The translations under genes were made by a program, and so were the position numbers. From Panorpa germanica (lineage: Eukaryota > Arthropoda > Insecta > Mecoptera > Panorpidae), in the NCBI GenBank assembly GCA_963678705.1, contig OY783209.1, forward strand, positions 13,888,001 to 13,952,000: a stretch of DNA of 64,000 nt, given 5' to 3'. The first letter of the stretch is position 1, and every line of letters starts with the position of its first letter. The notes under the pieces are model-generated. The model was not told the origin of the DNA and made no database searches. It saw nothing but the letters and a program-made list of their open reading frames with translations. Positions 2,736-53,438 of this stretch are shown piece after piece.

Positions 2736-4445
2736 CAAGCACTTGGACTTCAAATTAAATCAATGCATTTGGTATGCCCTCCAGAATCAGCCAAAGAATT
2801 TTTACAAATAGTAAAATCGGTTTTTGTAAAAAATACTCAGGTAAGAAGTTAGTTAATACAATATAAAATAAAGCAGATTAAGTAAATATTAGTAGTTCAA
2901 AGTTCCATTTACGTACCAATATACCTTTACCTTTATACCATTTTTAACGTCAAATTAACCCGATACAAAATATTAGATTTATTTGACTTAAAATCTTCGA
3001 TTTTTCTTTTAAAATGAAAAAATTACAATTCCTGAAAATTTATAAGTAGAGCTGATGGATTTTAACAAATAGAAATTATTTTACAACGCTTTATTTAAAA
3101 ATAGTAATGCCTCAAAATTCCTTGGACGCGGACGCAGGCAGCTGCTGATATACGCTCTCTCTCTCTCACACTGAAACTTATCTACAGCACTTTTCACTCA
3201 CCTGGCAGGTAGAATGTCCCACCGAAATTATCTGTATTTTTTAAAATATTTATTTTTAATTATAAATAATATCCTGTTAAAATTTCAACGTGCCTCATTT
3301 GCAGACATTTTGTCAAAATTTTTGTAAAATAATTTTGCAAGCACTTGGCAAAGTTTAAGACCCGCTATTATTGGTCCAACCTATACAAATAGCAATAAAG
3401 TAAACACAATCTAGATCTATTTAATCTAAAAAGGATTCTAATTTGCTTGAAATCGTATTCATCTATGATTGTATAAATAATTACTACAGAGTGATTAAAG
3501 TAAGTAAATTAACTTATTCTTAATGGCAATCGGTTGAAAAATCGGTTTTCCTTTTTGGTACGTGACAAAACAAAATGAACAAAAGGAGCAGAAACGGAAA
3601 AAAATGTATCTTATTAACAGCGTAAACGAAACGAAACGTAAAAACCCAATGGACCTACCAAATATGGTGTAGGTTCCATATAGGTTCCATATGCACTAAA
3701 TATTAATGTAATAGGTTAAGTCAAAGAGTGAGTCATCGGTGGATGGCAAGCTCGCATGTCATATTTATATATATTCTAAAAATTTGATTAATGTCCTTCG
3801 AGGACAGATTGTAAATTATGTATGTTGTAAAATAAAGAAAAAAAAAATCAACAGCAACGAACAGAATAATATAAGTTCCTAGTCTGTTACATGATAAGCC
3901 TTTAACCTCAAAGATTTTTAGTAATCAAAAATGAGATATTTTTCGAATAACACAAAAAAGGGTTTTAGTTATGTAATGCTATATTTAACATAATGTTAAC
4001 CGCGCTTAACATAGTTATATATATTTAAGGCATGATTGAGTTAAAAAAAAATTACCTTATTTACATAAATATATTATGTTAATATAGATACATTAGATGA
4101 TTTAGATTACATTAGAGGAATTAAAATAAACTTTTTATTGCTAACAGAGCTGGTATTAGCTAATGGTAATGGTACAAATATTTATTTTGTTTCTCAGTTT
4201 GTAATCCATGAAGACTTAGCATCTCTTCACCGCTCCGTCGAACCAGCGTTGTTGCCGAGGAAACTTGGAGGAAAACAAAACGATGTTGATCAAGTGCAGG
4301 GTAAGCAAAACTTCATTTTAAATTACATATATTTGTTGTTATAATTTTAAAAATATCAATATATCCTCTAGGCACATGGTTAAAGAAGTTAAATGACTGG
4401 CGTCAATGGTTCCTCGAGGAAGACAGGAAATACCAAGCAGTTTGA
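2736..4445 (+). CDS. CRAL-TRIO (alpha-tocopherol transfer-like) protein, gene 1, 3' exons only
   Basis: Three exons match exons 4-6 of the complete paralogue at 15737-21450 in size and phase: 2736-2840 (105 nt, starts QALGLQIKSMHLVC), 4198-4300 (103 nt, starts FVIHEDLASLHRSVEP) and 4372-4445 (74 nt, ends EEDRKYQAV and TGA). Introns are GT-AG; the last is 71 bp. CRAL-TRIO/SEC14 proteins carry a small hydrophobic ligand in a cytosolic lipid-binding pocket, and these exons encode the C-terminal half of that fold. The exons for the N-terminal helices and first half of the pocket were not found between 1 and 2735, so they lie to the left or are lost. No frame break is seen in these three exons. 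The copia insertion starts 186 bp past the stop. Confidence 0.85.
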
Positions 4446-4630
4446 ACGTTACTGGCACGAAGCTCTCAAATGATTCAAAAAATATAAAGCATAAAGTAAA
4501 CTTTCAAATTTACATTTTTTTAAATTAATCTCAATAGATTATATACTTTGATGATTTCTTGTTTGTGTATTTTATTGCAAAATCAATGAAAATATATTTT
4601 ATGCATACAATATTTCTGTTTATTATAAAT

Positions 4631-4979
4631 TGTTGTAATTATAAGTAAATAATTAGTTTTGTATTCACCGCCAATTATAAATATATATGTGTTATCATAG
4701 TATAGTAAGTTACCAGTGTAGATATTATTGTAGATACCAACGTAGTACCAGCACTAGGAACACACGAGCCATCTGAGATTGGTAACATTAACTAATAGTA
4801 CCGGGAGTGCTTCGTCATGTCGTACGAAGTCAAGTTGACTGGTTGAATCCAAACGTTATACAGATAGGACGCTCTTTGTGAAGCCAGTGCTAATACTACA
4901 TATAGAATACTTTTTAATTAAACATACATCTTTTAATTCATTATCTTTTATTCAATCTCTGCAAGGATAGTTCCCAACA
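4631..4979 (+). repeat. 5' LTR of the copia element
   Basis: This 349-bp direct repeat is paired with 8932-9280; I found no difference reading the two side by side. The ends are TGTTG...CAACA. A TATAAATA stretch near 4676 is a possible core promoter. Confidence 0.95.
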
Positions 4980-4993
4980 GGTTATGGGCCCAG
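4980..4993 (+). other. Copia primer-binding site
   Basis: Directly after the LTR comes ggttatgggcccag. As I recall it, this is the primer site of Drosophila copia, which pairs with an internal part of initiator Met tRNA rather than the tRNA 3' end. Confidence 0.75.
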
Positions 4994-5361
4994 ATTACGA
5001 TCTTCTGCAACATCGATTAAAAGATATATTACAAGATATCAGGGTTTTGAGAAAAAAGTGAGGCAGCCATCTTGAAGCAAACGGAGGTGATATTAATAAG
5101 TCCACATTTGCTTGTGAGACTATTTAGACATTAATATTGTGTTTGTGGTGAAGGAAAAGTGATATTAATAAGTTCATCGAAACTATTTTGAAATTAATAT
5201 ACTTTTTGGGCTGAAAAACGGTAACATTAATAAGTCCACACGTGCTTGTGAGACTATTTAGAAATTAATGAAAGGATTGTGTTCGAACATCAAGATTAAT
5301 AAGTCCTCGTGTGTGAGAGACTATTTAGACATTAAGATTGTGCTCGATCGACAAGATTAAG

Positions 5362-8300
5362 ATGACCAACAGTATTAGCATCGTTAAGTTTGGTGGTAAG
5401 AACTACCAGCAATGGAAATTTCAAATGAAGTGCATATTGAAATCAAAGGGTGTGTACGAGTGTACAACAGGCACCGAAGTTAAACCAGGGGTTAACGCAA
5501 CAGCTGATTTAGAAACGTGGATTCAAAAGGATGCAACGGCGATGTGCATCATAACCAGCTCGATGGAACTACAGCAAATAACGCTAATCGAAAATTGTGA
5601 ATCGGCCAAGGAGATAATGGACAAACTTAGCTCTATTTATGAGATGAAATCAGAAACGAACAAGATGTTAGTACACGAGAGGTTTCATCAATACAAAATG
5701 GCACTCAACGAGACGATGGTGCAACATATTTCGAAAGTGGAAAATCTTGGCAAGCAGATACGGGAGTCAGGTGATACTCTCAGTGATACTGCAATCATGA
5801 CTAAAGTATTGAGTACGCTACCATCCAAGTATCGTAACTTTAGGCAAGCATGGTTGTCAGTGGAGGATTCGAAACAGAACATGGCCAACTTAACTGGACG
5901 TTTGTTGGATGAAGAGGCGAATCTCATGAAATATGAAGAAGAAGAAGAAGTCGCTCTAACAACTACTAGGGCAGTACATACAGAAAGAAGGCAGATTAAT
6001 AAGAAAATTGTGACGTGCTTCAAATGTAACCGGAAGGGTCACTATGCGAGGGATTGCAGAACAGTGATGTACAGTAGAAGAAATAAGCAAAATGTCTCAT
6101 GCTTTAAATGTAATCGTAAGGGTCATTACGCGAGAGATTGCAAGAGAATAACGAATCAATACGAAGAAGAACCACATCAAAGTAATCACGGAGCCTTCAA
6201 CGCAGAAATATGCAACCAGACTATCAGTAAAGAAGGTTGGATCCTGGATAGCGGAGCTTCAACCCATATGACATATAAACGGGAATTCTTTAATACGTTT
6301 AGTGACTGTAAGGGACTCACCGTCAAACTAGGCAATAATGAAGAAGTACCTGTGGAAGGCATCGGCACAGTAAAGATTAAGAAATTAATTAAAGGTAGAA
6401 GCGTGGATGGATTGATTACAAATGTCTGGTATATACCCAAGCTAAGGAAGAACTTATTATCTGAAGGAGTGATAACTAAAAAAGGGATGAAAATAGTTAA
6501 GCAAAACGAGACAGCTGAAATATACGACCGTGGAATGTTAGTAGCCAGTGCAATCCGAGAATCAAATAATTTGTATAAGCTACAAATCGAAACTGTAATT
6601 ACCATGGAAGCACATACTACAGTAAGGTCAAATCTTCAAGTCTGGCACGAAAGATTGGGACATCTGAATGTTAAGACTCTTTGCGAAATGGTTTCGAAAG
6701 GGTTAGTGGAAGGAGTGGATATTGAAAATACCAATGAATTCTTCTGTGAAGGCTGTCAGCAAGGAAAACAACAGAAGTTGAAATTCGAGAAACAAACCAA
6801 AACAGTGAGAAGACCTGGTGAAATCATACACAGTGATGTGTCCGGCCCAATGTCTGAACCATCTGTAAGTGGTTGTAGGTACTATGTACTATTCAAAGAT
6901 GACCATACTGGTTTTAGAATGGTTTGGTTTATTAAACACAAGACAGACGTTTTATCATGTTTTCAAAAATACGTAAAGATATGTGAAAATAAATTTGGAT
7001 ACAGACCGCAAATTCTGAGAGTTGACAACGGGAAAGAATACTGCAACCGTGAGTTTCAAAGTTATCTTTCAAACAAAGGCATTCTAATGGAAACTACAGC
7101 ACCATATACTCCAGAACAAAACGGAAGATCTGAACGTGATAACAGAACGATTATGGAAAGTGCACGATCAATGCTTTACGCAAGCAAGAAACCAATGTAC
7201 CTGTGGGCAGAGGCTGTAAATACAGCAGTATACATACTCAACAGAACGGCAACTAGACAGATTACAGATTCAACACCATATGAAGCCTGGATGAAAAAGA
7301 AACCGAACTTGAGCCATAGCAAAACTTTTGGTTGTGACGCATTCATGCATATTCCAGATGCACTTAGAACGAAGCTGGAAAGTAAAAGTAAGAAATTAAT
7401 ATTCGTGGGTTATGAAAAGGAATCGACAAATTACAGACTGTTTGACCCAACCACAAAGAAAATCAAAGTATCGAGAAATGTGACATTCAACGAAAATAAC
7501 AACTTAGACAGAGAAAACCCAACACAGATGTCGGAAATAGCAATTGAAAAGGAAAAAGGGGAGATCAACAATCAAGAAGAAGTGATTGAAAATGAGACCA
7601 CAGAATTAAGGATTGAAACTGAAGTCGACCAGGTAAATCGACCGAGACGTAATACGAGAAAACCAATACGTTATACCGAAGCCAACATTGTTGAAGCGGA
7701 AATATTAAACTCGTATGAAGAGGCGTTAAAGAGTGAAAATGGAACAGAATGGCAAGAGGCCATAGACGCAGAACTATTGCAAGAAGATGTGAAACAAGTA
7801 TTAGATTGGCTTGAAAATCACAGTGAAGTTTTTATTAAGAATAATACAGAAATTAGCAGAAAGATACAGGAGGCAAAAGTATTTCAAAAGTCACATAAAC
7901 ATTTTGAAAATATTGCTAAGAACACATACACGAAAGCTGAGAGATTACTAACAGCAGTTGAAGAACTAACACAGACCAGTGAATGCAACGTACAGGAAAT
8001 TCACTCTGTAGCTCAGGAACTAGGAGAGAAGCTACAACAAGAAATAAGGTCTATGGGAAATATAGACTCTACAGGCTCGATGTCAGCCGTAGAAGGAGCT
8101 GTGGAACGACTTCCTAAACAGCGTGGAGAACTTGAGGAATTCTGGGACACAAGAAAAATGCGACTTGATTTATGTTTAAGGCTACGACTATTTGAACGAG
8201 ATGCACTGGATGCATGTTTCCAACTGGATATGTGGACTGAAGAACTGCAGCACAGCGAGTTATCTCACGATGTGCAAAAAGCGAAGGAACTTATCCTGCT

Positions 8301-8865
8301 ACACAATGAAAGGGTCAGTCAAATGCAAAACACGACGTTCCAGGTTTTGCAACAGGGACAAGAACTTACGCGGCTTATTGAATCTTCAGGAGTTTGTGTC
8401 ATTGCAGATGCACAAACTATGGTACAGGTGCTGCTAGAACTTCTCCATGAACGCGAAATGAATATAGTAAATTTAGCCAAGATGAAGCGTGTTAAATTAG
8501 AGCAATGTATACAACTGAGTCAGGTTCAAAAGGACGCCGAGAAAATAATTAGGACCAGAAAACGAGAAGCTGTGTTACTAACAAGTTTCACAGTACCCAA
8601 CAGTTCGCAAGATGCAGAACAATTTAGAGAAGGTGACACAAATTATGGAATGTATACGGAAGATATCTCTGATGCTGACTACGCCAATGCCGGAGACGCA
8701 AGAAATGTCTTAACGTTATGCAAGGGAGCTAAAACGCGGAACAGCAAACGTCAAGCATCAGTAGGACCATCAAGTATTGAAATTAACAGAAGTGTTAAAT
8801 GTGAAGGACAATTAAATATAGACAATCAAAGTGCCTTTACACCTATAATAATATCAGTGATTTAA
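5362..8865 (+). CDS. Chimeric Gag-protease-integrase-Trio spectrin repeat polyprotein
   Basis: Single open frame; the first ATG is at 5362, giving 1167 aa (the frame itself is open from 5338). Domains, numbered from that ATG: copia Gag (UBN2-type) about 1-200; two CCHC knuckles CFKCNRKGHYARDC from Cys219 and Cys247; aspartic protease DSG from Asp296; GAG-pre-integrase motif WHERLGHLN at 428; integrase catalytic triad Asp492, Asp555, Glu591 (D-x62-D-x35-E). Copia sequence stops after EWQEAIDAEL near residue 805. Residues about 807-1090 then read like spectrin repeats of Trio/Kalirin, for example NTYTKAERLLTAVEELTQTS and LRLRLFERDALDA. After about 1091 copia RNase H fragments return (ISDADYANAGDA, KRQASV, DNQSA) with pieces missing, to a TAA. 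No reverse transcriptase YVDD box is present. The Trio match is from memory of the family, not a search. Confidence 0.88.
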   Translation: MTNSISIVKFGGKNYQQWKFQMKCILKSKGVYECTTGTEVKPGVNATADLETWIQKDATAMCIITSSMELQQITLIENCESAKEIMDKLSSIYEMKSETNKMLVHERFHQYKMALNETMVQHISKVENLGKQIRESGDTLSDTAIMTKVLSTLPSKYRNFRQAWLSVEDSKQNMANLTGRLLDEEANLMKYEEEEEVALTTTRAVHTERRQINKKIVTCFKCNRKGHYARDCRTVMYSRRNKQNVSCFKCNRKGHYARDCKRITNQYEEEPHQSNHGAFNAEICNQTISKEGWILDSGASTHMTYKREFFNTFSDCKGLTVKLGNNEEVPVEGIGTVKIKKLIKGRSVDGLITNVWYIPKLRKNLLSEGVITKKGMKIVKQNETAEIYDRGMLVASAIRESNNLYKLQIETVITMEAHTTVRSNLQVWHERLGHLNVKTLCEMVSKGLVEGVDIENTNEFFCEGCQQGKQQKLKFEKQTKTVRRPGEIIHSDVSGPMSEPSVSGCRYYVLFKDDHTGFRMVWFIKHKTDVLSCFQKYVKICENKFGYRPQILRVDNGKEYCNREFQSYLSNKGILMETTAPYTPEQNGRSERDNRTIMESARSMLYASKKPMYLWAEAVNTAVYILNRTATRQITDSTPYEAWMKKKPNLSHSKTFGCDAFMHIPDALRTKLESKSKKLIFVGYEKESTNYRLFDPTTKKIKVSRNVTFNENNNLDRENPTQMSEIAIEKEKGEINNQEEVIENETTELRIETEVDQVNRPRRNTRKPIRYTEANIVEAEILNSYEEALKSENGTEWQEAIDAELLQEDVKQVLDWLENHSEVFIKNNTEISRKIQEAKVFQKSHKHFENIAKNTYTKAERLLTAVEELTQTSECNVQEIHSVAQELGEKLQQEIRSMGNIDSTGSMSAVEGAVERLPKQRGELEEFWDTRKMRLDLCLRLRLFERDALDACFQLDMWTEELQHSELSHDVQKAKELILLHNERVSQMQNTTFQVLQQGQELTRLIESSGVCVIADAQTMVQVLLELLHEREMNIVNLAKMKRVKLEQCIQLSQVQKDAEKIIRTRKREAVLLTSFTVPNSSQDAEQFREGDTNYGMYTEDISDADYANAGDARNVLTLCKGAKTRNSKRQASVGPSSIEINRSVKCEGQLNIDNQSAFTPIIISVI

Positions 8866-8919
8866 TATGTGTCAAAGACTGTTTAGATTTAAGCACTTTT
8901 CTATTTATAATGAGCTGTG

Positions 8920-8931
8920 AATATGGGGGCG
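8920..8931 (+). other. Polypurine tract of the copia element
   Basis: A short purine run (tatgggggcg) abuts the start of the 3' LTR, where plus-strand DNA synthesis is primed in LTR elements. Confidence 0.6.
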
Positions 8932-9280
8932 TGTTGTAATTATAAGTAAATAATTAGTTTTGTATTCACCGCCAATTATAAATATATATGTGTTATCATA
9001 GTATAGTAAGTTACCAGTGTAGATATTATTGTAGATACCAACGTAGTACCAGCACTAGGAACACACGAGCCATCTGAGATTGGTAACATTAACTAATAGT
9101 ACCGGGAGTGCTTCGTCATGTCGTACGAAGTCAAGTTGACTGGTTGAATCCAAACGTTATACAGATAGGACGCTCTTTGTGAAGCCAGTGCTAATACTAC
9201 ATATAGAATACTTTTTAATTAAACATACATCTTTTAATTCATTATCTTTTATTCAATCTCTGCAAGGATAGTTCCCAACA
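8932..9280 (+). repeat. 3' LTR of the copia element
   Basis: Partner of 4631-4979, same length and, as read by eye, same sequence. The target duplication TAAAT follows at 9281-9285. Confidence 0.95.
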
Positions 9281-9285
9281 TAAAT

Positions 9286-28465: not shown

Positions 28466-31400
28466 ATGTATAAAAATACTTGTATAATGCAATGGAACTG
28501 CCGCAGCTTAAAATCCAAATTGATAAATCTAAAACAAATAGTTTTTGAAAATAATATTGAAGTAATCGCGCTCTCGGAAACCTGGCTTGATCCATCTTAT
28601 AAAATCAAATGGAGAAATATGGAACTAGTAAGAGCAGATAGAAATAACAACGGTGGAGGCGTTACTCTAGTAATAAACCACAACATTTTTATTGACAAAA
28701 TTTTAATTCCTCTCTCAGGGGATATTGAGATTATAGGAGCAAAAATTAAATGGGGTGATGGGCATATTAATGTTGTATCTCTTTATGCCCCAGCAACAGC
28801 ATCTATTACTACAGGAATATTGAATACAATATTAAGATCTATTCCAGAACCAAGGCTAATTCTAGGTGACTGGAATGCTAAAGCCATTGCTTGGGGAAAC
28901 ACCTATGACTGTCCAATGGGTAAAATTTAATGTCAGGTGATGGACAATAATAACATGATGTTCCTTAATGATGGTTCTCCTACTCGAATCGACATCCATT
29001 CAGGAACAGCGTCAGCAATTGATTTATCATGGCCAACTCCATCTCTTGGTAGCCAACTTTCATGGAACGTAATGGAGGATCAATTAGGTTCAGATCACGC
29101 CATTATACTTATGAATGGGGCACAAATTGGTCAATCAAGCAGAGGCAACGAAAGATTTAAATTAAACATCGTACCAAATACAATCGACTGGGACAATTTC
29201 TCTAACCAAATAGAAGCAGACTTATTGGCAAACCAAATTCAGTACAATATTACGCTGGAAAAAAAGTATAGTGGTGATGAAAGTAAAGAGGCTGTGCAAA
29301 ATAGAAAAAGAGCCTACAGAAGATACCACCGAAATAGTTCTAAAACAAATAAAGTAGCCTTAAAAAAAGTAGAATCTGAAACGACCAACTTACTAAAGTT
29401 CAAGAAAAGACAAGCTTGGAAAAACCTTGCCGAAGAGTTAAACCATAATTTAACTACTAAACAATTATGGGAAAAAATTAATAGGATGAGAGGTTCAGGA
29501 AAATGCACGAAAACAATTTCACCTAACAGTGAGGACTTGTTATGTGAACTTTCACAAGTAATAGCACCGCCCTGGGTACCTGAGCAAGAAAGCGTACTAT
29601 ATATGGAGTAACTCAAGACGACTCTAGTAAAATGATGATTAAAGAAGTAGAAATGTGGGAGCTACAATCTCACCTTATAATGACGAAAACAACCACGCCT
29701 GGTCTAGATAAAATATCATATGAAATATTAGGCCATCTCCCATCAATCGCTAAAAAGTTATTATTAAACATATACAACACAATTTTAGAAAAAGAACTAA
29801 TTCCTGAGTCCTGGAAAAATACTCAGATTGTTCCAATATTAAAAATAGATAAGCCAGTAAATCAACCAACCTCATATAGACCTATAACTCTCATTAATTG
29901 CTGCAGAAAAGTCTTTGAGAAAATATTGAAAACGAGATTAGAACATTGGTTAGATTCTAAGTCGTTAATACCAAAGCAAATTTTAGGCTGTAGAAGAGGT
30001 AGAAGTACCAGGGATGGCATAGTTGCATTATCAGCTAGAATTAAAGCAGGAAAAAACAAAGGCAACGTATCAATGGCCTGTTTTGTAGATATCAAAGCAG
30101 CTTTCGATAATGTAAACATCAATTTTTTATTAAGGCAATTATATGTAATAGGAGTACCGAGACTAATAATTAATATACTAAAGAATTTACTAAGTGGCAG
30201 GAAAACTCAACTATGGTTTAATGGATTATTATCGGACTGGAGAATATGTTCCAAAGGCATTCCACAAGGCTCAGCACTAAGTCCTCTCCTCTTTAATATG
30301 ATGGTTAGATCAATAAAACCGTATCTCAACCCAACAATATCATGGATATCATATGTGGATGACTTAGTTTTCTTATCACAAGAAAATACTACAGAGGAGA
30401 CTGGAAAACAAATGCAAAAGACTGTAAATAACTTAGAAAAATGGCTTAATGATGCTTGTTTAGATGCATCAACCGAAAAATCTAAACTAATGATTTTTAA
30501 CATGAGTTCAAAAATATCTCAGCCACCTATAATAACTCTAGGTAAACAAAAATCGGAATACACAAATAATTATATATACTTAGGATTTCCATTTTCTACA
30601 AATAAATCCGAAAAATCAATAATACTCAATATTAAAAAAAAGCTGAACCTGCAATCAATATACTCAAAATGTTTGCTGGACAAAGATGGGGACTAAATAC
30701 ATCTTCGCTACTAAATTGATATAAATCATTAGTCCGCCCTCATTTGGAGTATGGTGCAGAGGTACTAATAATGTGTAAAAATAATACAATAGAATCACTT
30801 GAAAAATTGCAATATAAAGCTTTAAGAATAGTATTAGGAGCTATCTGTACAACTCATACCCTTTCATTACTAGCAGAGGTTTGTATGCCACCATTAAAAG
30901 AAAGATGGATAAAGAAAACGTCTTATTTTATGGCTAGCGCTTTAATGACAAATAACACATTAATAAGGGACGAACTTAACGAATTATCAAGAACAGGTTC
31001 CAGAAGTCATGAACTTAATGCAATTTGGATAAATGAAAAAAGGAAATGGACAGAAAGAGGAACCCCAGTAGAAATACCAATTTTCGAACTAGATTATTAT
31101 TACTCAGGTAGAGGAACTTCTGCAAATATAACTATTGGCAAGGAGCTAAATATGAGTAACATATTACCTGAGCTAATAACTATAGACTTACAACAAAAAT
31201 TAGATCAACAATTCCCGAATTATACAAAATTATATACTGACGGCTCAAAAGTAGCAGATGGAGTGGGTGCAGCAGTAGTAGCTATTAACAATAGCAGAAT
31301 TTACAAGCTTCATAATCAAGCATCCATATATACAGCTGAGTTATGTGCCATAGATCTAGCTGTGGATCAAATCATTACTGATGACAGAGACAGCACTTTA

Positions 31401-32086
31401 ATATTATCCGACTCGTTATCAGTCATACAGTCGTTAAGCAGCAGTAAGGGAATCAATACAAAATTAGACAACAAAGTTTATTATGTCAAAGAAAAAATAA
31501 ATAGGGAAATAGGTAAGGGCCGAAATATTAAACTAATTTGGATACCTCACATAAGGGAATTAAGGGAAATGAAAAAGCTGATCAAATGGCCAAGGTAGCT
31601 ACTTCCTGTGATAAATATATTTCATTTTTTATAAAATCAGACATGAAAGCAGAATTAGAAAAAAATGAAATGAAAAATTGGCAAGACAAGTGGGATAATT
31701 CTGATAAAGGTAGAGAATTTTATACAATACAACCAATACTGAGACGTAAGCCATAGTTATTAGCTCAGGCCAAATTAAAATGGCCAAGAAGATTAATTAC
31801 AATGACCTCAAGACTAAGAATAAATCATACTGGAGCTCCGAAACATCTAGCAAGAAACAAAATCATTCCAAACTCTAAATGCGAATGTGGTGAAGAAGAG
31901 GCAGACCCTGACCACATTCTGTGGCAATGTAAAAATACAGCAATTGCAAGAAATGGACTCCAACGGGCGGTGCTACAGACTTCGCAGACGCTTCCTGTTA
32001 ACACCGCCTTTTTGATTGAGAAACCGAAATTTATAACAGCAGTAGCCATGAATAGATCATTCTTGTTGTCGGGATACAAAGTATAA
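28466..32086 (+). pseudogene. I-like LINE ORF2 (endonuclease, reverse transcriptase, RNase H)
   Basis: Starts ATG 28466. Endonuclease: QWNCRSLKSKL, LSETWLDP, GDWNAKAIAWG, then SDHAI. Reverse transcriptase: SYRPITLINCCRKVFEKIL, FVDIKAAFDNVN, GIPQGSALSPLLFN and the intact catalytic YVDD near 30354. RNase H: YTDGSKVADGVGAAVV, TAELCAIDLAV, LILSDSLSVI. The terminal motif is CECGEEEADPDHILWQC. Breaks: TAA at 28928, a stop/frameshift near 29610, another near 30697, and a frameshift near 31560 in the last RNase H motif. The catalytic boxes survive, so decay is recent or modest. Confidence 0.88.
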
Positions 32087-36740: not shown

Positions 36741-38352
36741 CAGGGCCGTCTTTAACCTATTGGAGGCCCTGGGCATGTTAGGATAATGGGGCCCCTATGA
36801 CTTTGACAGAACACTATTTTGTTAGAATAGACATAGAAACTAGATAAACAAGGTTAAATATTTATTTTTATTAACAATCACATGAAACGAATAGATAAAT
36901 GTAATATAGTCCACAAAAGTAACTCTTTTAACATTTACAGATTAGTGCTTAAAAATCTATGTTATTTGAAGAGGAACCCTTCTAGATTTCAGATGGGCAA
37001 AATCGTTAATCAGATTTTATGGACATCAGCGACAAATTGGTTAATCTCTCTTGAAGCATTGTACTTCTTAATTCATTTTTAATTCTTTTTAATTTGGAGA
37101 AGGAGCGTTTTCCACTGCAGTTAGTTACCATCATGCTTAAAAAGATTCTCAATGCGATTTCTACATTTGGAAATGTGTCTTCAATTTTGTTTTCTTTCAA
37201 AAGTTGATATATTTTTAATATACAATCCTTATTTTCACTGTCATCAATTTTCAAGTATTCTGTTAAATGCAAACATTCTATTTCTAACTCTTTCTCATTA
37301 ACATCTTCATAATAAAATTCAGCAAATTCTTTGCAACTTTGTCTCAACTCTTCAGAATTGAGAGTTTTCAAGCGAAAAAATAAATAAAAACGTTTACTGA
37401 TATTCTTATACGAATTTAATCGCTGTTTAGACGTCGAAAAAAAATTCTCAAGGACATCCACACAATTTGTTCATGGAAACTCAAGGTATTAAGAAGGAGG
37501 ATTTGGATCCATCATACCACACTTATTTAGTACGAAAAGAATCGTCATGTTGCGAATGCCTTCTCTGTCTATATTGCGAATGGATATTTGACAAATTATT
37601 GTTTTTATGTAGAATATACGGAAGTAATAATGAAGAAGTCTTCATTTATAATAAAAAAACCTCAATGTGAGAACTGAACTTCTCAAAAAAACAAATCTAT
37701 CAGATCACAAATTCCATTGTTTTATTAAAATTCATTGTAAATAAATAAAATATGTACATATTATTAGCATTTATATTAGACTGGGCCAAAAAAAATCAAG
37801 TATTTCTTTTTTAAAGGTACATTGAAAATCTTATTCGGGATGTCAAAAAATTTTTTTTGTGAAAGTTTGACCCCTTAAAATCAAAATTAACAGGTCTATC
37901 GCAATTTTAGATTTTTATTCTTCTTTCAAATTCTGTTTTAAGAACTTCTAAACCATCAAGCTAAAAAAAATGAACTATATTTATGCTTATAGGAAATTAA
38001 ATACTCTACAAAAAATGATGAGTGTACTACTGATGATTTTTCTTTAAATGGGTATGTGCTTAGTATACCATTATATATTTAAATTTATCTAAGCATGCTG
38101 AAGTCGGAAAGCCTAATTTTTGGGCGAGAGTAGAATAGCTCGCATTTACGAGTAAAAGCGAGTAAGTTGGTATTTTAGTCAGTAATTTAGGTTCGATTTC
38201 TTCGAATCAAATAAGTTTTTTGGTAATAAATATTGGTTATCGTTTGATGATCTGACAGGAACTAAGAACTTTGTATTTGATCTGAGGGGGGCCCTATCGA
38301 TCGCGGGGCCCTGGGCACTTGCCCAAAGTGCCCAATGGGAAAGAGGGGTCTG
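36741..38352 (-). mobile_element. hAT element with 8-bp target duplication, decayed
   Basis: Ends cagggccgtctttaaccta (36741) and, reverse-complemented, cagacccctctttcccatt (38352) are imperfect inverted repeats. GTCCCGTG flanks both sides exactly (36733-36740, 38353-38360). The 1612-bp interior holds the end of a hAT transposase on the minus strand. Confidence 0.9.
37006..37461 (-). pseudogene. hAT transposase C-terminus (ZMYM1-like, dimerisation domain)
   Basis: About 150 open codons end in NCSGKRSFSKLKRIKNELR, then ERLTNLSLMSI. This is the hAT dimerisation domain in the form found in ZMYM1-like/DUF4371 proteins. The upstream BED/TTF finger and RNase H core are missing or degraded, so the protein cannot be active. 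It lies centrally in the element 36741-38352. Confidence 0.85.
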
Positions 38353-51589: not shown

Positions 51590-53438
51590 CGTCAGCTGGA
51601 CGGAGTTGTTCTTGTTCTGAAATATTACATGAAGAATGGGGTTGTGCAGGCCAAATCAGACCTAATCTTGGATATTTATTAGAACTACTTAAGAAAGCAG
51701 AACTTTTTTGAGCTGCTGATTATGTATCTATTGATTTCCTAAAAGGTCTGTTATTGTTATTTATTTCGCTTACACTTACTATATTACACTTTTTTTTTGT
51801 TCACTTTTGTATAGGACAACCTGCAGTTCGACTCACACACGGACCAGTTGCAGCTGTCGATATTAATATAAGTGCACACCATGCAAGTGCTTTGAATGTT
51901 CAAAATAATCAGTTAGTATATTCTTCAATGAATGTACAACTTGAATGAACAAAACACTAATTTAATTTCTTCTGTACCTGATATAAGTGCTTTAAATGTA
52001 CAAGCTAGTGAAAGGATATTGTATTTACCAAATTTAAGTAGTCTAAATGTACAAAGTACGGATTCAATGAATTCAACATTTTCAAATGTAAATATTTCAA
52101 ATACTCAAAATAGTGAAGTATTCACTGCATTGCCAGATATAAGTGCACTTAATGTGCAATAGGATTTATATACTCCTTTGGTTTCAACAATAAGCGTTTG
52201 TACAAATTTACCTCATTTGCCTTACAATAATATCTCAGAATATACAAATCATTTTGACGAAACCTGTTACAAACAGAGGTCGAGGAAATTAGGATCTGGA
52301 GCATTTGGGACCGTTTATTTAGCATTTAACTTATTAGGTGCGAAAGTTGCTATAAAGAAAATGCATAATGAGAATCATATGATGGATAAAGAATTTGCCA
52401 AAAGACAATTTAAAAATGAGGTTGAAATGATGTTCAAATATGAACATAACAATTTATTAAATCTATTGGGTTATTCTTGTGATGGAAGGTGGTTGAAAAA
52501 TAAAGATGAATCTTTGCTTTTTAAAAATAGATTAATCATAGCTCTGGGATGTGCTAAAGCAATTGATTATCTACACAATGGTTTAGATACACCATTAACC
52601 CATCGAGACGTTAAATCTGCAAATGTTTTACTGGATCATAATAATGAAACAAAGGTATGTATTTCAGATTTAGTTTGAAGCGTGATGTAGCAATTATATT
52701 TTTAATAAAAAATAATGTTTTTTAACTCAGCGACTTTGGATTTGTGAAAAAGACTACTAACACCTCTGGGTCACGGACTGCTACTGGCATTATAGGAACA
52801 ACGCCATATAGGCTATATGGCACCAGAAGCATTAAGAGGAGAAATGTCAGTAAAGTAAGATTGCTTCAATTAACACCATAACTATTATTGGAACTTATTA
52901 CAAGTTTGTCACCAATGGATAAAGAAAGGCATTGGAAGGATCTATTAAATATACAACAGTTCATTAAATATTATAATTCTATTAAATTTACCATAACTCT
53001 CAGTAAACAATTTGGTGAAGTGTCCTATTTAGTGACGTTTCTATCATTATTTCACTTCAATTATATTTCGCATCAACTTTATCTTCATTTGTATTCCGAC
53101 AGGTGGAGTAATTTCGCCATTTGTAGCCGATAAAGAAGACATTTTATATGAAAGACTGTGAGAAACTGAACTATAAATGAACTATTTCATGACAAAAAAA
53201 TCATGACGCATATTCAATATGATGTCAAAGTGACTCCAAAATGTTTACTGGGCTCCTTAAATTTATTTTATAGGTAACATATAAAGAAGAATATATTGAA
53301 ACTCTACCTGATGGTATTGTTAGGTTGGTAGATAGATCAGCAGAAGATTGGATCAAGGAAGCCAAAGCCTTATATGATATTTCTTGCAAAGACATTTTAC
53401 ATAATGTTTCTAACTTAGTATTACTTAGTGTTAAATAA
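51590..53438 (+). pseudogene. IRAK4/Tube/Pelle-like kinase pseudogene
   Basis: Death-domain-like part: SWTELFLFCEILHEEWGC-type residues, with an in-frame TGA near 51709. An apparent intron (51746-51812) and then a repeat region with ISALNVQ-type units (four or so) follow. Kinase part: KLGSGAFGTVYLAF glycine loop, VAIKKMH lysine, HRDVKSANVLLD catalytic loop, DFGFVKK, YMAPEALRGEMSVK. The segment after the hinge (LVYE..PNGSL in relatives) is missing. Breaks include a frameshift near 51945, TAG at 52159, frameshifts near 52665 and 52805 and a MITE at 53001-53252. The C-terminal residues SAEDWIKEAKALYDIS follow the MITE. Relatives act downstream of Toll/IL-1 receptors. Retained intron-like gaps suggest a decayed duplicated gene rather than a retrocopy. 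Confidence 0.8.
53001..53252. mobile_element. MITE with cagtaaaca termini, copy 3, inside the kinase pseudogene
   Basis: Starts cagtaaacaatttggtgaag and ends tgactccaaaatgtttactg. It separates the kinase C-lobe from the C-terminal tail. Confidence 0.85.

Follow-up and report, generated by a model that had tools for sequence, protein, structure and literature searches.

A Ty1/copia-derived element family carrying an intron-free piece of the host trio gene in Panorpa germanica

Introduction

In acutely transforming retroviruses, which are replication-defective and spread by a helper, a piece of host mRNA replaces pol sequence and is often fused to Gag. The maize LTR retrotransposon Bs1 lacks a reverse transcriptase (RT) and has few copies. 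In two articles, Bs1 is described as an LTR retrotransposon holding pieces of three host genes, with a hybrid coding sequence (PMC13317346, PMC5408686). The first article also describes template switching between packaged RNAs, and presents BARE-2 of barley as a subfamily produced by abnormal template switching (PMC13317346). In the second, a microsimilarity model is cited in which template switching at short similarities brings host mRNA sequence into the cDNA of LTR elements, and LTR-mediated retrocopies are attributed to invertebrates and vertebrates, Drosophila included (Tan et al. 2016, as cited in PMC5408686). Gene capture by crocodilian endogenous retroviruses is the topic of a further study (PMC4299795). 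Among the matches listed in the literature, mostly papers accessible without a subscription, none concerned capture of Trio by a retroelement.

So far, host-gene capture by LTR elements has mostly been represented by isolated retrocopies or plant relics. Here we analyze a 64,000-nucleotide stretch of the Panorpa germanica genome (hereafter the window), in which an LTR retrotransposon resembles Bs1 in carrying host-gene sequence: an intron-free host coding sequence (CDS) lies between its LTRs.

Structure of the window element

The element is made up of the following features (window positions; basis of each assignment in brackets).

4631-9280, plus strand: LTR retrotransposon, whole (LTR pair and TAAAT flanks)
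4626-4630, no strand: target-site duplication, left copy, TAAAT (sequence)
4631-4979, plus strand: 5' LTR of 349 bp, with the same sequence as the 3' LTR (sequence comparison)
4980-5361, plus strand: leader, starting GGTTATGGGCCCAG, with repeated units inside (sequence)
5362-8865, plus strand: single open frame of 1167 codons comprising Gag, protease, integrase, Trio piece and RNase H remnant
5425-5925, plus strand: copia-type gag, PF14223 (Pfam)
6013-6060, plus strand: first zinc knuckle, PF00098, in two stretches (Pfam)
6238-6489, plus strand: Pol_BBD protease region, PF22936, with DSGAS (Pfam)
6568-6771, plus strand: gag_pre-integrase, PF13976 (Pfam)
6811-7113, plus strand: integrase core, PF00665 (rve), holding the DD35E residues (Pfam)
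7294-7503, plus strand: retroviral polymerase SH3-like domain, PF25597 (Pfam)
7773-8021, plus strand: Trio block 1, host trio CDS nt 138-386 (alignment to spliced CDS)
8022-8632, plus strand: Trio block 2, host trio CDS nt 636-1261, containing the Spectrin_6 match at 8182-8460 (alignment, Pfam)
8633-8865, plus strand: truncated copia RNase H remnant and stop (sequence comparison)
8866-8931, plus strand: 3' untranslated stretch, with GGGGG directly before the LTR (sequence)
8932-9280, plus strand: 3' LTR, 349 bp (sequence comparison)
9281-9285, no strand: target-site duplication, right copy, TAAAT (sequence)

A preliminary description had reported exact LTRs with a target duplication, and we find 349 of 349 LTR bases identical (ends TGTTG...CAACA) with the 5-bp duplication TAAAT on each side. 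It had also reported one frame through Gag, protease and a complete DD35E integrase; this frame runs from an ATG at 5362 to a stop at 8863-8865, its domains are recognized by Pfam, and the catalytic residues are D500, D563 and E599, with 35 residues separating the latter two (numbering from codon 5338). The order of gag, protease and integrase, with copia-type domains (Pfam), is that of Ty1/copia elements, and 651 copia-type relatives were recovered at E 1e-20 or better; in viral contigs, no relative was found.

Within the frame 5362-8865, Pfam recognized no reverse transcriptase family, and neither a YVDD reverse transcriptase nor a complete RNase H was found. The description's return to copia RNase H after the insert stands in that RNase H is present beyond the join, but what is present is a truncated remnant, which lacks some internal pieces and its end. 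Since the reverse transcriptase is absent and RNase H is truncated, the window element is a non-autonomous Ty1/copia derivative. The leader start is a candidate copia-type primer-binding site for an initiator tRNA fragment, and the GGGGG before the 3' LTR is presumably polypurine-tract-like. The copy number of the leader repeat units varies (locus L047 has more, L013 fewer).

Elsewhere in the window lie a LINE-like element (28466-31595), whose endonuclease, RVT_1 reverse transcriptase and RNase H each occupy a different frame, and a protein-kinase exon-like frame (52178-52675; Pkinase, E 5e-17), which may resemble Pelle/IRAK kinases. A minus-strand frame at 37006-37461 presumably resembles the C-terminal region of a hAT transposase.

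Identity and source of the Trio segment

Searched alone, the inserted segment matched the Kalirin-like Spectrin_6 family in Pfam (E 1.5e-6, 28.9 bits against a cut-off of 27). A phmmer search with positions 7780-8640 returned 26 proteins (best E 1.3e-87), two of which carry the source name 'triple functional domain protein', and residues 790-1175 as query matched 65 proteins, including named Trio and Kalirin from insects, crustaceans and chelicerates. None of these 65, which come from a candidate set restricted by length and by word sampling, is listed with copia domains next to its Trio domains. These matches bear out the proposals that the inserted residues resemble Trio/Kalirin and that Trio-like spectrin repeats have taken the place of the reverse transcriptase. 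Pfam found neither CRAL-TRIO nor DH-PH exchange-factor domains in the window frame: the piece is a Trio fragment with Trio-type spectrin repeats, not a Trio protein.

The donor gene is present in the same assembly (464 Mb in 249 contigs searched), where trio on contig C20 matches the window piece exon by exon at 82% nucleotide identity. In the set compared, the host Trio protein is closest to those of beetles (Aromia, 85% identity across 210 residues; Cryptolaemus, 85% across 201 residues), with 83% to Dendroctonus and 82% to Zootermopsis over the whole span. Splicing seven exons of the host gene in order leaves six internal junctions (CDS nt 162, 285, 477, 662, 825 and 1053), and the introns are GT-AG. 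The suggested alignment to host trio allowed joins and exon borders to be mapped: the Trio segment comprises 860 nt (7773-8632), with joins at 7772/7773 and 8632/8633, within a few bases of the approximate positions first proposed (7775 and 8632), and both joins fall within exons. Relative to the host gene, the window copy has an in-frame internal deletion of 249 nt (83 codons) at 8021/8022.

Five host junctions lie inside the window piece, all of them intronless at the exact splice junctions. The absence of five introns from the retained piece indicates that RNA was captured, in agreement with the earlier proposal of an intron-free host mRNA, as the GT-AG introns of host trio have no counterpart in the element. 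Entry from genomic DNA instead, by recombination or later insertion, is extremely unlikely given that the lost introns include one of about 30 kb, that undeleted copies elsewhere in the genome continue unbroken across all six junctions, and that no intron remnants were seen in the 38 loci read, older copies included. We reject genomic-DNA capture on the missing introns of the window piece and the undeleted copies.

Loci, forms and joins

At E 0.001 or better, the Trio segment had 97 matches in the genome, five of which belong to the trio gene on C20. The remaining 92 merge into 53 loci, of which 38 were read, the window included. Rather than one fresh event, this is an old capture now present at 53 loci. 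Other copies with the same joins, which the preliminary description had suggested seeking, do exist with respect to the 3' side, but the 5' join has moved. In 37 of the 38 loci, Trio gives way to the RNase H remnant at one common 3' position (in four of the 37, L026, L028, L030 and L032, the local alignment ends 6 nt before the join); the one locus without this join is L046.

By their 5' joins, the loci fall into three forms. In form A (3 loci), copia stops upstream of the integrase core and Trio begins at host nt 112; in form B (24 loci), copia reaches the start of the reverse transcriptase and Trio begins at host nt 138; and in form C (8 loci), about 57 RT codons are added and Trio begins at host nt 292. 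Form B comprises 5 undeleted loci and 19 with the 249-nt deletion. Three loci (L037, L044 and L046) are truncated or have an ambiguous 5' join and were left outside these forms. At the form A join, 6-8 bases are covered by both the copia and the Trio alignment; the exact match at form B and C joins is only two or three bases, with TATACG in the RT-bearing copy and TACACG in Trio at the form C join being a near match only.

Of the 38 loci, 35 have a 12-nt deletion close to host nt 1022, the exceptions being L034 (10 nt), L041 (a larger deletion covering the site) and L046. This deletion and the common 3' join point to a single capture, with L046 possibly apart. Several independent captures of trio would accommodate L046, which is intronless, has no copia parts and lacks the 12-nt deletion, but given the two features common to nearly all other loci we regard such a history as very improbable, and for forms A-C we reject it. 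In L046 itself (G000:C7:7173292-7179381), the Trio sequence at positions 4002-4597 corresponds to host nt 656-1255; this locus may be a retrocopy in its own right or represent a stage that came before the family.

Two further observations concern diverged copies. L044 (G000:C41:113881-119971) is among the most diverged, with an LTR 70% identical to that of the window and nine stops in Trio, and the search matches in one region of about 73 kb (G000:C5:4235382-4308019) include four Trio-bearing stretches that are diverged but similar to one another, resembling a tandem duplication.

LTR pairs were readable in 23 of the 38 loci, and in 21 of these they are flanked by matched 5-bp duplications. 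In 19 loci, which are deleted B (window included) and C, LTR divergence is 0-0.9%; four loci of undeleted B have 2.4-4.1%. As had been claimed from the window copy, the chimera itself has transposed, and some of this transposition was recent. An assembly artefact or a single dead insertion would leave both the common join across many loci and these target duplications to be explained; its probability is practically negligible and we reject it.

Loss of Trio sequence is easy to envisage, whereas copia could scarcely supply it again, which places A before B, and B before C. A Trio-region tree of 34 copies and host trio forms a ladder from A through undeleted B and deleted B to young B and C, with support of 100/97 for the branch splitting A from B and C. 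Support is strong for 8 of the 32 inner branches and below 80 for 15, and neither deleted B nor C forms a single clade. The nested 5' joins, along with the tree that includes host trio, suggest a stepwise history from one capture.

The reverse-transcriptase-bearing partner

When the genome was searched with a full-length copia protein, at least six loci covered residues 19-1315 of this query at 56-57% identity, at least four of them without internal stops; 35 of 3366 candidates were scored, making these counts a lower bound. Among the same 35, a second copia family (e.g., G000 C7:8258463-8262323, about 41% identical to the query) has at least 17 full-length copies, nearly all open over 1309-1322 codons.

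An intact copia in the same genome, one of the checks first proposed, is represented by the RT-bearing copy at C9:6834678-6838547, of which three pieces were compared with the window and which we refer to as the partner. The two LTRs of this copy do not differ from one another and match the window LTRs at 99.4%, and the leader (99.5%) and gag start (98.0%) are similarly close. The genome thus holds an intact relative with matching LTRs and leader, as a helper would be expected to be.

Identity to the partner is not even along the element. It is 99% across the integrase core (6362-7361) and 96% across 7362-7772, for which the eight closest places are all chimera loci (window included), and falls to 89.7% in the 116 nt ending at the Trio join and 89.3% in 56 nt of 3' untranslated sequence. 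The contrast in mismatches (12/116 vs. 9/982, counts rounded from percentages) has P 1.5e-7. The five undeleted B loci show the reverse of the window copy, with divergence from the partner of 13.9-22.8% in the LTR and 11.2-14.3% in the pre-join stretch, so a difference in rate does not explain the window contrast. A backbone at about 99% around cassette flanks at about 90% implies that backbone and cassette have different histories and were recombined. The window copy is a mosaic, with an older Trio cassette inside a refreshed copia backbone.

Selection on the Trio segment

If the spectrin repeat were a working part, for example an oligomerizing or cytoskeleton-binding tail on Gag-PR-IN, selection should have kept it. 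Consistent with this, the chimera frame is open for more than 1100 codons in 10 of the 38 loci (L037 has an eleventh long frame, distinct from the chimera's), the Trio-region indels that copies have in common (249, 12 and 3 nt) preserve the frame, and one confidently predicted spectrin repeat is retained in the forms read. Omega is 0.47 for shared changes and 0.71 for private ones, but these values do not differ significantly (P 0.14), stop variants are shared in 4 cases, and omega reaches 0.75 in the last third of Trio compared with 0.08 in Gag-PR-IN. In comparisons by subfamily, omega in Trio is 0.35-0.59 between subfamilies and 0.49-0.76 within them, both ranges mixing active and dead lineages. 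Selection on the Trio piece appears at most weak, and a working role for the repeat unlikely.

Alternatively, the Trio piece might act on host trio through small RNAs or as a competing RNA. Young copies retain long trio-identical stretches in sense orientation, including a 41-nt stretch identical to host trio in 15 of the 38 loci (window among them), but it coincides with a part of the Trio protein that is highly conserved among insects, so common descent suffices to explain it and we consider an RNA effect highly improbable. The broader proposal that the cassette is the element's own accessory, whether as a spectrin tail for the particle or as trio-identical stretches feeding RNAs that act on host trio, is unlikely; if true, a captured host fragment would have become useful and heritable through successive element generations.

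Proposed origin and spread

We consider it very likely that these loci represent a non-autonomous copia family that bears a cassette of host trio mRNA and is copied by the reverse transcriptase of a partner, with Trio being mostly a passenger. Spliced trio RNA would have been co-packaged with copia RNA, and reverse transcriptase would have switched template on both sides of the trio stretch, yielding one chimera, form A, which would have started without an integrase core and RT. Template switching at capture may have been the mechanism, but the runs of matching bases at the joins are short. The structures show the integrase core again in form B, then the loss of 249 nt of Trio, and in form C the first ~57 RT codons as well, Trio shrinking at each stage.

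Having no RT and a truncated RNase H, the chimera is unable to copy itself, and it retains LTRs, leader, Gag, protease and integrase. Copying in trans by the partner's RT is most likely: chimera RNA, with its partner-like LTRs and leader, would be packaged, copied by that enzyme and then integrated. The same co-packaging would account for repeated exchanges between backbones and cassettes.

Comparison with known systems

Host-gene capture by LTR elements is already known; a long-lived, graded, in-frame family that tracks its partner is a new form of it. Bs1 combines pieces of three plant genes, whereas the element here carries a piece of one animal gene behind a complete Gag-PR-IN frame and belongs to a graded series of 53 loci, with an RT-bearing partner in the same genome. 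BARE-2 gained its new sequence from another retrotransposon, while here the source is a host gene. The LTR-mediated retrocopies, as cited in PMC5408686, are gene retrocopies; here the host piece lies in-frame in an element family that continued to transpose.

The intron-containing donor gene, an intact partner with RT and the graded descendants of one capture occur together in one genome, allowing the trimming, frame-keeping and backbone-to-backbone passage of a captured mRNA to be read. The family is also a natural counterpart, in the germ line, of helper-dependent retroviruses with host genes. It differs from the acutely transforming retroviruses in being a copia retrotransposon resident in the genome and in having descended through many germ-line insertions.
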